Below, one piece after another: positions 9,284-14,774 of a stretch of 37,070 nucleotides of DNA. This stretch comes from Hydrogenophaga sp. (lineage in GTDB: Bacteria; Pseudomonadota; Gammaproteobacteria; Burkholderiales; Burkholderiaceae_C): assembly GCF_028698005.1 (NCBI RefSeq), contig NZ_JAQVEJ010000012.1:1-37070 (forward strand). Reading direction: 5' to 3'. Position 1 is the stretch's first letter; each line of letters begins with the position of its first letter. The position numbers were made by a program, and so were the translations under genes. The notes beneath the pieces are model-generated. The model saw only the letters and a list, made by a program, of their open reading frames with translations. It was not told the origin of the DNA and did not search any database.

Positions 9284-9360
9284 AGGCGCATAGCTCAGCT
9301 GGTTAGAGCACCACCTTGACATGGTGGGGGTCGTTGGTTCGAATCCAATTGCGCCTACCA
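9284..9360 (+). tRNA. tRNA-Val (anticodon GAC)
   Basis: A 77-base cloverleaf. The acceptor stem AGGCGCA pairs with TGCGCCT, followed by A and an encoded CCA. The D-arm contains GCTCAGCTGGTTAGAGC; the anticodon stem CCACC/GGTGG encloses loop TTGACAT, giving anticodon GAC (valine); the T-loop is TTCGAAT within GTTGG/CCAAT. It has its own promoter and a strong terminator five bases after CCA, and it borders the degraded region at 9403-11001. Confidence 0.97.
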
Positions 9361-9364
9361 ATTC

Positions 9365-9401
9365 AAAACCCTCGCAAGTCCTTGGCTTGCGAGGGTTTTT
9401 T
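9365..9401 (+). terminator. Rho-independent terminator after tRNA-Val
   Basis: A 14-bp perfect stem (AAAACCCTCGCAAG at 9365-9378 with its complement at 9386-9399), a 7-base loop, and a T-tract ending near 9401. It lies immediately after the tRNA CCA end and can terminate in both directions because of the A-run on the left arm. Confidence 0.92.
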
Positions 9402-9512
9402 CGTTTTTTGGTCCTGCTCGCTGGCGCCTGTTGAGACGAATATGGGACGATCAGGACGCTTTGGCCAGATCCTTGTCCTGGGCGGGCCCCCATCACAGCC
9501 GCCAGCATCGCC

Positions 9513-9665
9513 TCAGGCTCGGCTGGTAATGGGGTTCCAGAAAATGTGCCCGTCATCGTCCGAGAACGCGCCGCGCACAGCCTTGAACGCCATCATGGCG
9601 GGCGGCGTCAAGTCCACCCAGCGCTCCTCGTGCGTCTTCAGCGGCCCGATCTCTCCCGCCGAAAG
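9513..9665 (-). pseudogene. Fragment resembling a tyrosine recombinase (integrase) catalytic domain
   Basis: On the minus strand an open stretch ending at the TGA 9515-9513 reads ...GPLKTHEERWVDLTPPAM and, further on, GHIFWNPITSRA. This has the shape of the beta-hairpin region of phage-type integrases, where a Lys-Thr is followed by an Arg-x-Val-x-Leu strand, Pro-Pro-Ala and a helix, then an Ile-Phe-x-Asn-Pro turn. The second half of the catalytic domain (HxxR and the Tyr) is missing. It directly follows the AraC remnant in another frame. The match is by eye, with limited certainty; the alternative is an unrelated C-terminal tail. Confidence 0.45.
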
Positions 9666-9689
9666 CTGCGCTCCTTGCAATTCGATTGA

Positions 9690-9908
9690 GCTGAAGGGGG
9701 CGTGCCGAAGTGGCGCCGGAACATGGCGCTGAAGGCGCTCTGGCTGGCGTAGCCGCAGTCGAGAGCGATGTCGATGATCCGCTCGCCTTCGGCGATCCTG
9801 CGCAGCGCCAGCAGCAGATGGGGGCCTGTTCGCGCCACTGCGCGGAGCTCATGCCGGTTTCCTTCATGAAAAGCCGGTGGATGGTCTTGGTGCCCACGCC
9901 GCCCTGGC
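9690..9908 (-). pseudogene. AraC-family regulator, C-terminal HTH remnant, frameshifted
   Basis: Minus-strand reading gives GTKTIHRLFMKETGMS and AQWREQA in one frame, then from about 9820 LLLALRRIAEGERIIDIAL and DCGYASQSAFSAMFRRHFG in another. Joined, this is the double helix-turn-helix of an AraC/XylS regulator, with the second recognition helix and the RRHFG signature. The N-terminal effector domain is absent: homology stops near 9908, where plus-strand transporter homology begins. The missing 5' ends of both genes imply that one deletion removed the space between a divergent regulator and transporter pair. It should be non-functional. Confidence 0.8.
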
Positions 9909-10737
9909 CGCCCAGTCGGCGGCGGTGGCGGTGTCGGCGGGCTGCGCCAGCAGCGCCTTGCTCGCTTTTTCCACCAGCTACCCGATGCTGCTCGTCGCCT
10001 CGGCCGTGGTGGGCGTCGGCTCCGCCACCTTCCACCCCGAGGCCTCGCGCGTCGCGCGCATGGCCTCGGGCGGGCGCTTCGGCACGGCCCAGTCGACCTT
10101 CCAGGTCGGGGGCAATACCGGCTCGGCGATCGGCCCGCTGCTGGCCGCCGCCATCGTGATTCCCCATGGCCAGGTGGCCATCGCCTGGCTGATGCTGGCC
10201 GCGGTGCTGGCGATCCTGGTGCTCTCGTACCTCACCGGCCGGACACTGAACCACGGCCAGGCCGGGTCAACAGCCTGGCCTGCAGCCAGGCGGGCGGGCT
10301 GGGCGGGAAAGAAGTCATCCGCGCCATCGTGGTGGTTGCCATCCTCATGTTCGCGAAGTTCGTGTACATCGCCGCGTTCACGAACTGCTTCACCGTTTAT
10401 CTGATCGAGCGCTTCGGCGTGAGCGTCCAGCAAAGCCAAGTCTACCGGTTCATCTTCCTGGGATCGGTGGCCGTGGGCACCTTCGCCGGCGGCCCCGTGG
10501 GCGACTGGATCGGCCGCAAGGCCGTCATCTGGATCTCGTTCCTGGGCGTGGCGCCGTTCGCGCTGGCGCTGCCCTACGCCAGCCTGGCCTGGACCGCGGT
10601 GCTGGCCATCGCGGTCGGCCTGCTCATGTCGTCCGCCTTCGCCGCGCTGGTGGTGTACGCGCAGGAGGCCGTGCCGGGGCGGGTCGGCATGGTCTCGGGC
10701 GTCATGTTCGGCATCGGCTGGATCGGCGCGGCCGGCC
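9905..10737 (+). pseudogene. Fosmidomycin-resistance (Fsr)-type MFS transporter, truncated at both ends and frameshifted
   Basis: Plus-strand segments match the Fsr family of major facilitator transporters: GVGSATFHPEASRVARMASG and GTAQSTFQVGGNTGSAIGP in one frame, then after a frameshift near 10262, ERFGVSVQQSQVYRFIFLGS and GGPVGDWIGRKAVIWISF in the next. Roughly the first 75-100 residues are missing on the left, and the protein breaks off after GVMFGIGWIGAA, so the last helices are lost as well. Family members export fosmidomycin and related compounds; fosmidomycin inhibits Dxr, whose intact gene is at 25733, but I see no link beyond coincidence. At the right end the sequence changes directly to a NifQ fragment. 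Confidence 0.82.
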
Positions 10738-11001
10738 TGCGCCAGCCTGGGCGACCGCCACCTCTGGCAAGACCTGGGGCTGAACTCGCGTGATGAACTC
10801 TCGGCCCTGATCGCCCACGCCTTCCCGGCGCTGGCCGCGGCCAACCACCAGAACATGAAGTGGAAGAAGTTCTTCTACCGCCAGTTGTGCCTGCGCGAGG
10901 AGATCCTGATCTGCAAGTCGCCAACCTGCGCCGATTGCTGTGATCAGGCCAAGTGCTTCGGCCCTGAGGTGCCAGAGGAGGGTTCGTCGGCCATGAGCTG
11001 A
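10738..11001 (+). pseudogene. nifQ: NifQ, C-terminal remnant (molybdenum delivery for FeMo-cofactor)
   Basis: A frame without any start codon of its own reads CASLGDRHLWQDLGLNSRDE, then NMKWKKFFYRQLCLREE and CKSPTCADCCDQAKCFGPE, ending at TGA 10999-11001. The Cys-x4-Cys-x2-Cys-x5-Cys spacing followed by FGPE, and the MKWKKFFYRQLC segment, are hallmarks of NifQ, which passes molybdenum to nitrogenase cofactor assembly. About 87 residues remain, roughly the C-terminal half. The frame is entered straight from the broken Fsr transporter, so this is a rearrangement junction. There are no other nif genes in the window. The intact cysteine motif suggests a recent break or a functional second copy elsewhere. 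Confidence 0.83.
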
Positions 11002-11065
11002 CCCTGCGGCGAAACCCGGTTACGCTCCGGGGAGCCCGGCTCTTCGCGCACCAGGGAAAGCGTTC

Positions 11066-12268
11066 ATGACCCCCATCATCACCAGCCTGCTGGACACCGA
11101 CCTGTACAAGTTCACGATGTGGCAGGCCATGCTGCACCGTTTCCCCCAGTCGCAGGCCGAGTACCACTTCATCTGCCGCCACCCGCCGGCCTTCCCGTTG
11201 GCGGCGCTGTTGCCCGAGCTGCAACAGCAGCTCGATGCGCTGTGCGCGCTGCAGTTTCGCGAGGACGAACTGGCGTATCTGGGCGGGCTGCGCTTCATCA
11301 AGAGCGATTTCGTCGACTTCCTGCGCATCTTCCACTTCCAGCGTGCGTTCATCCGGGCCTGGGCCGAGGGCGATGTGCTGCGCGTCGTGGCCAAAGGGCC
11401 GCAGGTGCATGTGATGGCCTTCGAAATCTTCGTGCTGGCCATCGTCAACGAGTTGTATTTCCGGCGCTTCGATCAGGCCGCCGCGCTGGCTGAGGGCCGT
11501 CGGCGATTGAACGACAAGATCGCGCGCATGCAGGCGTTCGAGCGGGACAGCACCCGCTGGTACCCCTTCGAGGTCACCGATTTTGGCGTGCGCAGGCGCT
11601 TCTCGGGTGCCTGGCAGCGCGAGGTCGTGGCCACGCTCGCCAAGCGCCTGCCCCGGGTGTTCAAGGGCACGTCCAGCGTCCTGCTGGCCAAGGAGCTGGG
11701 CCTGGTCGCCATGGGCACCATGGCGCACGAGTACCTGCAGACCTACCAGACGCTGGGGGTCCGGCTGCGCGACTCGCAAAAGGCCGCGCTGGAGGACTGG
11801 GTGCAGGAGTACCGGGGCGACCTGGGTGTGGCGCTGACCGATGTGATCGGCATGGACGCCTTTCTGGCCGACTTCGACCTGTATTTCGCCAAGCTGTTCG
11901 ATGGCCTGCGACACGACTCGGGCGATCCGCTGGTGTGGGCCGGCAAGGCGCTGGCCCATTATGCAAAGCTGCGCATCGACCCGCGCACCAAGCGCCTGGT
12001 GTTCTCCGACGGACTGACCATCGACAAGGCCTTCGACATCCACCGTGCGCTGGCCGATCGCACGCAGGTGGGCTTTGGCATCGGCACCCACCTGACCAAC
12101 GACATGGGGCTGGAGCCGCTGAACATCGTGATGAAGCTGGCCAGCGCCAACGGGCAGCCGGTGGCCAAGCTGTCCGACTCGCCCGGCAAGACCTTGTGCG
12201 ACGACCAGACCTTTCTGGCCTACCTGCGGCAGGTATTCAAGGTGCCGCCACCGGAGGCGAATCCATAG
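11066..12268 (+). CDS. pncB: Nicotinate phosphoribosyltransferase (PncB)
   Basis: A 400-residue protein, the same length as E. coli PncB. It joins nicotinate and PRPP, with ATP hydrolysis, to nicotinate mononucleotide in the NAD salvage pathway. The N-terminus [20 protein letters not shown] is characteristic. Family motifs follow in order: [15 protein letters not shown]-like (here [19 protein letters not shown]), [42 protein letters not shown] in the PRPP-binding region and [10 protein letters not shown] near the C-terminus. AGGGAAAG precedes the ATG. It stands alone, downstream of the pseudogene region and before phaR in the same direction. Confidence 0.95.
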
Positions 12269-12330
12269 GCTGGTGCCCGCCTGCGCCTCCTCCAAGGGAA
12301 AACCCATGCTGCGGTGCACGCAGGGGCTCT

Positions 12331-12336
12331 TAGAAT
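12331..12336 (+). promoter_or_regulatory. Possible -10 element for phaR
   Basis: TAGAAT lies 75 bases upstream of the GTG chosen as the phaR start. If used, transcription would begin around the ATG at 12343, which argues against that ATG as the start and for the GTG at 12406. No clear -35 box. Confidence 0.35.
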
Positions 12337-12405
12337 GGCCGCATGCCCGCCCCGGTATGCGGGCTGCTTGCCCCTTGTTCCTGTTCCTTCCCGCGAAAGC
12401 CCACC

Positions 12406-12948
12406 GTGCAGAAAAGCCAGGCCGCCGACAACAGCTCCCGTCAGCCCGGGGTGCGCGTTATCAAGAAGTATCCCAACCGCCGTCTCTACGATACCGACAC
12501 ATCGTCCTACATCACGCTGGCCGAGGTCAAGGCGCTGGTGATGGACAGCGAGCCCTTCGTGGTGCGTGATGCCAAGACCAACGACGATCTGACGCGCAGC
12601 ATCCTGCTGCAGATCATCCTGGAAGAGGAAACCGCGGGCGTACCGATATTTACAGAACAGATCCTGGCCAACATCATCCGCTTCTATGGCCATTCCATGC
12701 AGGGCTACATGGGCGCCTACCTGGAAAAGAATGTCCAGGTGTTCATGGACCTGCAGGCCAAGATGGCCGAGCAGTCCAAGGGGCTGACCCCGGAGATGTG
12801 GCAGCAGTTCGTCAACATGCAGTCGCCCATGATGCAGGGCATGATGGGTGCCTATCTGGAGCAGTCGCGCAACGCGTTCACGCAGATGCAGGAGCAGATG
12901 CAAAAGAACAGCGAGCAGATGCTCTCGGCGTTCGGTCTGAAACGCTGA
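12406..12948 (+). CDS. phaR: Polyhydroxyalkanoate synthesis regulator PhaR
   Basis: From the GTG at 12406 the protein is 180 residues, the usual PhaR size. The N-terminal DNA-binding domain carries RVIKKYPNRRLYDT and SSYITLAEVKALV; the following PHB-accumulation domain contains ILLQIILEEE and ANIIRFYGHSMQGYMGAYLE. The C-terminal third is Met/Gln-rich and probably forms amphipathic helices that touch granules. PhaR represses phasin and its own gene, and leaves DNA when it binds nascent PHB granules. An in-frame ATG at 12343 would add a Cys/Pro-rich extension not typical of the family. Together with bdhA it indicates PHB storage. Confidence 0.9.
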   Translation: MQKSQAADNSSRQPGVRVIKKYPNRRLYDTDTSSYITLAEVKALVMDSEPFVVRDAKTNDDLTRSILLQIILEEETAGVPIFTEQILANIIRFYGHSMQGYMGAYLEKNVQVFMDLQAKMAEQSKGLTPEMWQQFVNMQSPMMQGMMGAYLEQSRNAFTQMQEQMQKNSEQMLSAFGLKR

Positions 12949-14445: not shown

Positions 14446-14530
<85 letters not shown>

Positions 14531-14546
14531 ATCTCAGGAAGCTGGC

Positions 14547-14552
14547 ATTGTA
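14547..14552 (-). promoter_or_regulatory. -10 element for tRNA-Leu copy 1
   Basis: On the minus strand TACAAT (preceded by GCGC) ends 16 bases upstream of the tRNA 5' end, the same spacing as TATACT before copy 2. No clear -35 box is seen. Confidence 0.5.
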
Positions 14553-14630
14553 GCGCATTTTTTTCAGGTTACGCCAGTGTCTTCACATTTTTTGCGGACG
14601 GGTCCGAAGCTGCGGACGGGCGATGCAAAA

Positions 14631-14670
14631 AAGAAAAAAAAGGCTTGCCGCGCTACCGCTGGCAAGCCTT
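14631..14670 (-). terminator. Intrinsic terminator of tRNA-Leu copy 2
   Basis: AAGGCTTGCC (14640-14649) and GGCAAGCCTT (14661-14670) form a 10-bp stem with an 11-base loop. Read on the minus strand it is followed by a long T-run (the A-rich stretch 14627-14641). So each tRNA-Leu copy has its own terminator. Confidence 0.88.
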
Positions 14671-14689
14671 CTTCATGGCTATATGATGG

Positions 14690-14774
<85 letters not shown>

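Follow-up and report, generated by a model that had tools for sequence, protein, structure and literature searches.

How did four broken genes come to lie directly behind a tRNA gene in Hydrogenophaga, and what did they once belong to? The window, that is, the whole stretch of DNA analysed, is the entire 37,070-base contig (C114) of a Hydrogenophaga genome whose draft assembly (G000) totals 3.17 Mb in 281 contigs and is 99% complete. Among named organisms, the RelA loci nearest to that of the window are mostly from Hydrogenophaga, and the closest genome found reaches 87% in RelA. The gene order in the window is relA, tRNA-Val(GAC), four broken pieces, pncB, phaR and rimO; relA, phaR and rimO are presumptive names, and phaR is otherwise identified by synteny only. 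As the original prediction had it, remnants of an integrase gene, an AraC-type regulator gene, a transporter gene and nifQ follow tRNA-Val between positions 9360 and 11001. The features of the locus are listed below.

9284–9360, plus strand: tRNA-Val(GAC), found with ARAGORN; putative attachment site.
9361–9515, no strand: left end of the probable inserted DNA, from the match to congener G022 and sequence comparison.
9516–9680, minus strand: tyrosine integrase fragment of 55 codons, without both ends, from congener matches, alignment and shuffles.
9689–9954, minus strand: AraC-type regulator, C-terminal portion carrying small indels, from profile and DNA comparison.
9955–10738 (right end approximate), plus strand: MFS (Fsr-like) transporter, middle and most of the C-terminal half.
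10735–11001, plus strand: C-terminal half of nifQ, from the PF04891 profile and DNA homology with congeners.
11066–12268, plus strand: pncB (nicotinate phosphoribosyltransferase), intact, inside the probable insertion.
12269–12290, no strand: right boundary, from comparison with empty sites and a scan for tRNA copies.
12343–12948, plus strand: phaR, the usual right neighbour of tRNA-Val, from synteny.

The tRNA-Val gene of the window (9284–9360) differs from that of most congeners at three positions, two of which resemble a compensated acceptor-stem pair. Behind rimO lies a tandem pair of tRNA-Leu(CAG) genes (14446–14774), and this pair is also present in congener G026.

The customary order in Hydrogenophaga is relA-tRNA-Val-phaR-rimO. 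For 66 congeners besides the source genome, we determined how far from the end of the tRNA gene the phaR match begins. phaR lies no more than 338 bp from tRNA-Val in 49 of the 66 and 650–680 bp away in three; it is not adjacent in seven, and seven others (G029, G030, G033, G035, G060, G066 and G075) were not judged (contig end, partial or missing match). In the first 31 congener loci, phaR is found at 84–338 bp in 22 cases and at 650–664 bp in two, and in the remaining seven it does not follow or could not be judged. Among 30 further loci, 26 have phaR within 270 bp, and single additions place it at 166 bp (G019) and 680 bp (G025). For 80 named loci from Hydrogenophaga and other genera, phaR is within 300 bp of the tRNA gene in 32, and a match to the integrase piece of the window is within 600 bp of it in two. 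The corresponding distance from tRNA-Val to phaR in the window is 2,983 bp. Since phaR is the usual right neighbour and is here displaced by this distance, the insertion extends from 9361 to about 12285, with pncB inside it. Sequence common to the empty sites resumes at about 12285, just before a conserved GGGAAAACCCATG motif ahead of phaR. We conclude that the ~2.9 kb from 9361 to ~12285 are very probably what remains of one or more elements that entered at tRNA-Val and then decayed; a decayed insertion at this tRNA gene is well supported.

The placement of pncB departs from the original prediction, which had taken it for an intact housekeeping locus flanking the scar. It sits within the inserted DNA, as its sole intact gene, and the usual neighbour is phaR. 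We considered pncB as a native gene of the tRNA-Val site and ruled this out: the usual gap between the tRNA gene and phaR is too short to hold pncB, and the gene lies elsewhere in the congeners compared (G020, G026 and G034). In these three it is directly followed by one conserved gene, presumably nadE; in G021 its neighbours differ. The best match in the source genome to the protein encoded by that following gene reaches only 42%, and hence pncB stands alone here, within the insertion. Matches to pncB at E 1e-3 occur in 19 of 60 genomes, including the source genome, and in nine of the 35 congeners within this set.

What was the nature of the element? We initially doubted the integrase reading because the fragment (9516–9680) had no match in Pfam, in PHROGs or in a tblastn search of phages; plasmid matches (E 0.8 or worse) were set aside as unrelated. 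A search of congeners restored the reading. Among 60 genomes, comprising the source genome and 59 congeners, the best matches outside its own genome are in G014 (E 6e-8) and G022 (E 6.7e-6), and the next is at E 0.08. The matching integrase genes of G014 and G022 sit 1.9 kb and 0.43 kb past tRNA-Val, respectively, on the strand opposite the tRNA gene, which is also the orientation of the window fragment. Both encoded proteins carry PF00589, with PF12167 on its N-terminal side. An alignment of the fragment with four such integrases has 13 invariant columns across the five sequences, and in it the fragment retains the motifs K-T, R-x-VDL and F-x-NP-x-T. Shuffled fragments never matched the real score (0 of 1,000 against each of the four integrases). 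The family alignment spans the 55 amino acids of the fragment, which lacks the C-terminal end of the catalytic domain. The integrase expected of a tRNA-borne element is represented in the window by this fragment only.

The left end of the insertion also resembles the G022 element, with a 119-bp match at 87% that extends 41–42 bp beyond the tRNA gene; the first ~42 bp after the tRNA gene, a terminator-like hairpin, are similar to the left end of that element. At the right edge, the scan of window positions 9361–12400 detected no copy of the tRNA 3ʹ end at up to 7 mismatches in 20 positions or 4 in 15, so a right attachment site is unproved. As the direct repeat at the far boundary is missing, the locus is the remnant of a tRNA element and not a complete one. 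We also weighed TGCGCCT, directly behind pncB, as the possible relic of an attachment site, and rejected it because this faint match fails the scan threshold.

The original prediction held that DNA had entered at tRNA-Val and decayed, and proposed that some relatives would have an empty site, others a larger island, and the larger forms a copy of the tRNA-Val 3ʹ end. Comparison with congeners bears this out on each count. Besides the 49 empty sites, there are seven congeners in which phaR is not adjacent to tRNA-Val: G002, G014, G015, G022, G026, G061 and G085. In G014, tRNA-Val and phaR share a contig at a distance of ~76 kb, and phaR is preceded by a tRNA 3ʹ-end copy that is identical at 20 of 20 positions. 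In G022, the integrase gene occupies 429–1568 bp past tRNA-Val, with phaR on another contig. The distance is 2,570 bp in G002; by eye, the ~2.5-kb gap in this genome (L264/L085) holds one long, acyltransferase-like frame of 691 codons. In G015, phaR is on the same contig as tRNA-Val, over 100 kb away, and in G061 and G085 there is no phaR in the ~19 kb after tRNA-Val. No integrase was seen in the stretches from these last three genomes, which may represent rearrangements rather than insertions. A further congener, G089, was counted as empty for its relA-tRNA-phaR locus, and has on another contig (C14, L261–L262) a 27.8-kb stretch with an integrase gene, flanked by tRNA-Val on one side and a 49-bp copy of it on the other; its integrase is of another kind than that of the window fragment. 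The filled and empty sites of G089 may reflect a strain mixture or a second copy. A Delftia assembly (L165) has a second full tRNA-Val gene immediately ahead of phaR, 9.3 kb beyond the first.

The occupied site of G026 is of a different content. Its tRNA-Val is on contig C17 and its phaR on contig C8. The stretch of C17 (L083, 1–17156) holds the tRNA gene, FixC-like and FixA-like genes that fall below curated cut-offs, NifV and HscA, which are over them, and an iron-sulphur assembly gene. On C8 (L099/L200, from 114271) are nifH, nifD, nifK, nifE, nifN, a NifX-associated gene and then nifQ; nifD, nifK, nifE, nifN and the NifX-associated gene are all over curated cut-offs. A 50-bp copy of the 3ʹ part of the tRNA gene, 94% identical to the window tRNA, is located between nifQ and phaR. 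The nifQ gene of G026 is on the phaR side and has the same orientation as that of the window. Contigs C17 and C8 are unjoined, and C8 was read up to 152,800; a single nif island at tRNA-Val is therefore something that we only infer.

The nifQ piece of the window matches PF04891 (E 2.3e-36) at profile positions 84–159 of 159, and the start of the match at position 84 indicates that the N-terminal half of the gene is absent. The breakpoint is sharp: 13 congeners have a nifQ match at the DNA level, and in every one of them homology starts at window positions 10731–10735. Left of this point the window matches the transporter, and the few bases common to both at the joint (GCCT) would fit joining at short homology. 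As for other nif genes, nothing in the source genome exceeded the curated cut-off for nifH, for which five of ten genomes tested were positive, and NifE was not found. No nif cluster, taken as nifHDK plus nifEN, was recognized in this genome: half of nifQ is present, and the searches for nifH and NifE found neither. The nifQ match in G014 (L063, C15) contains one internal TGA, and so this copy may be damaged or misread.

The two pieces between the integrase fragment and nifQ had been regarded as unrelated. They are instead a known divergent pair from which ~0.96 kb is missing. The AraC-type piece matches HTH_18 (E 5e-11, minus strand) at profile positions 33–76 of 80. The transporter piece matches PF07690 (MFS) in two separate frames, at 9778–10401 (E 1e-10) and 9870–10790 (E 1.5e-10); it is without its 5ʹ part, changes frame between about 10263 and 10329, and has its 3ʹ end replaced by nifQ. 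The name Fsr is tentative: the NCBIfam matches of the transporter include no Fsr-specific model, and only MFS_1 is over its cut-off. An intact relative likewise matches MFS_1, with other transporter models far below their cut-offs. In Comamonas antarctica (L035) and on Variovorax plasmids (L036), araC and the transporter gene are divergent neighbours. The pair of C. antarctica and of the Variovorax paradoxus plasmids consists of the same two genes, with 68–77% DNA identity over the surviving pieces, and is intact by annotation, in contrast to the window. Window positions 9954 and 9975 correspond to L035 positions 6250 and 7228, and the ~0.96 kb lost relative to Comamonas takes the 5ʹ parts of both genes. 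When the 66 congeners were searched at the DNA level (E 1e-12, with five candidates per genome scored), one (G010) gave an araC-like match and none a match to the transporter. Three genomes of other families (G037, G039 and G042) have transporter matches.

Did all of these pieces arrive together? Several independent elements may have used the tRNA-Val slot at different times, for example an integrase-bearing prophage or island and then a nif island, leaving overlapping scraps. We judge this to have somewhat less than an even chance of being correct; it is a variant of the favoured account rather than a contrary one. The occupants of the slot vary among congeners: G014 and G022 have DNA with a related integrase, G026 has nif genes and G089 has another kind of integrase. 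The stretches of G026 that were read contain no related integrase and no araC or transporter match, and the nifQ of the window is nearer to its counterpart in G074 (84%) than to the one in G026 (63%). Nothing counts directly against multiple elements, and the data do not separate them from one composite island. Among the genomes examined, none has the integrase, the araC-transporter pair, nifQ and pncB together, and the pieces may or may not derive from one island.

A more distant alternative is that nifQ and pncB came to this place by chromosomal rearrangement, through illegitimate recombination involving a resident nif cluster and a pncB locus, with no tRNA-borne element involved. Such an origin would suit the finding that 12 of the 13 congeners with nifQ lack phaR within 1.5 kb of that gene (within the 1.1 kb to the contig end in G020), and that ten of these 12 have no phaR, pncB or tRNA-Val copy in wider stretches around nifQ either. 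It would also suit the location of pncB elsewhere in G020, G026 and G034, ahead of a conserved gene whose protein is so poorly matched in the source genome, and the short run of common bases at the transporter/nifQ junction. However, the one remaining nifQ-bearing congener, G026, has its nif genes at the tRNA-Val site, with nifQ on the phaR side and oriented as in the window, and we consider rearrangement alone unlikely. The suggestion that an island was “rearranged with a nif locus” survives as a possible route but not as the sole one, given that the nif genes of G026 sit at tRNA-Val, with nifQ adjoining phaR. Finally, a draft of 281 contigs could in principle contain unrelated scraps that were misjoined. 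For this, contigs would have to be falsely joined at several separate points in a 3-kb span, and one such join must have put a matching integrase piece at the very tRNA gene where relatives have that integrase, and we regard an assembly artefact as highly improbable.

How might a decayed insertion at tRNA-Val have reached its present form? One or several successive elements would have entered at the 3ʹ end of the tRNA gene, between relA and phaR, most likely by means of a PF12167/PF00589-type tyrosine integrase. Nearly everything would then have been lost in large deletions. The integrase gene would have lost both ends in this process, the divergent araC-transporter pair ~0.96 kb, and the transporter would have become fused to the second half of nifQ. 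Deletion would likewise have claimed the right attachment site and the original terminator downstream of the tRNA gene, with pncB as the only intact survivor. We infer the order of the deletions, the carriage of all pieces by one element and the arrival of the nif genes at the same site; the entry of nif genes at tRNA-Val is best treated as a lead.

It is well established that tRNA genes harbour islands, with their integrases, and that such islands decay. The closest known systems are tRNA-borne islands and prophages with a tyrosine integrase (PF00589) near the tRNA gene. The window is like them in having an integrase piece beside the tRNA 3ʹ end, in a site that is empty in most of the congeners judged; G014 and G026 also show the far-end tRNA copies. 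Unlike complete islands of this type, the window is almost wholly deleted, has an integrase of only 55 codons and yielded no second attachment site. The literature likewise describes tRNA genes as island hotspots (PMC4174501). According to the same source, the nif islands of Pseudomonas stutzeri carry nif genes at a conserved chromosomal site, flanked by cobS and a gene for glutathione peroxidase, and are reported to lack integrase and transposase genes; that of strain DSM 4166 is not tRNA-associated (PMC4174501). In comparison with the P. stutzeri island, the window keeps only half of nifQ, and the counterpart in G026 is at tRNA-Val. Titles and the openings of abstracts, from a literature with few subscription journals, included no paper on a Hydrogenophaga nif island or on a tRNA-Val hotspot in its family.

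The window itself is an ordinary decayed tRNA-borne insertion, and the lead of interest is a tRNA-Val nif island in Hydrogenophaga. We tentatively propose, as a possibility that is on balance doubtful, that tRNA-Val(GAC), in its place between relA and phaR, is the slot by which Hydrogenophaga chromosomes gain and lose nitrogen fixation, such that the window would be the relic of a vanished nif island, with pncB as the one cargo gene retained. One tRNA-Val hotspot in one genus is seen here in empty, filled and nearly erased states, with its boundaries and likely history read by comparison. If the link to nif genes holds, one mapped locus could serve to trace how Hydrogenophaga acquires and loses diazotrophy.
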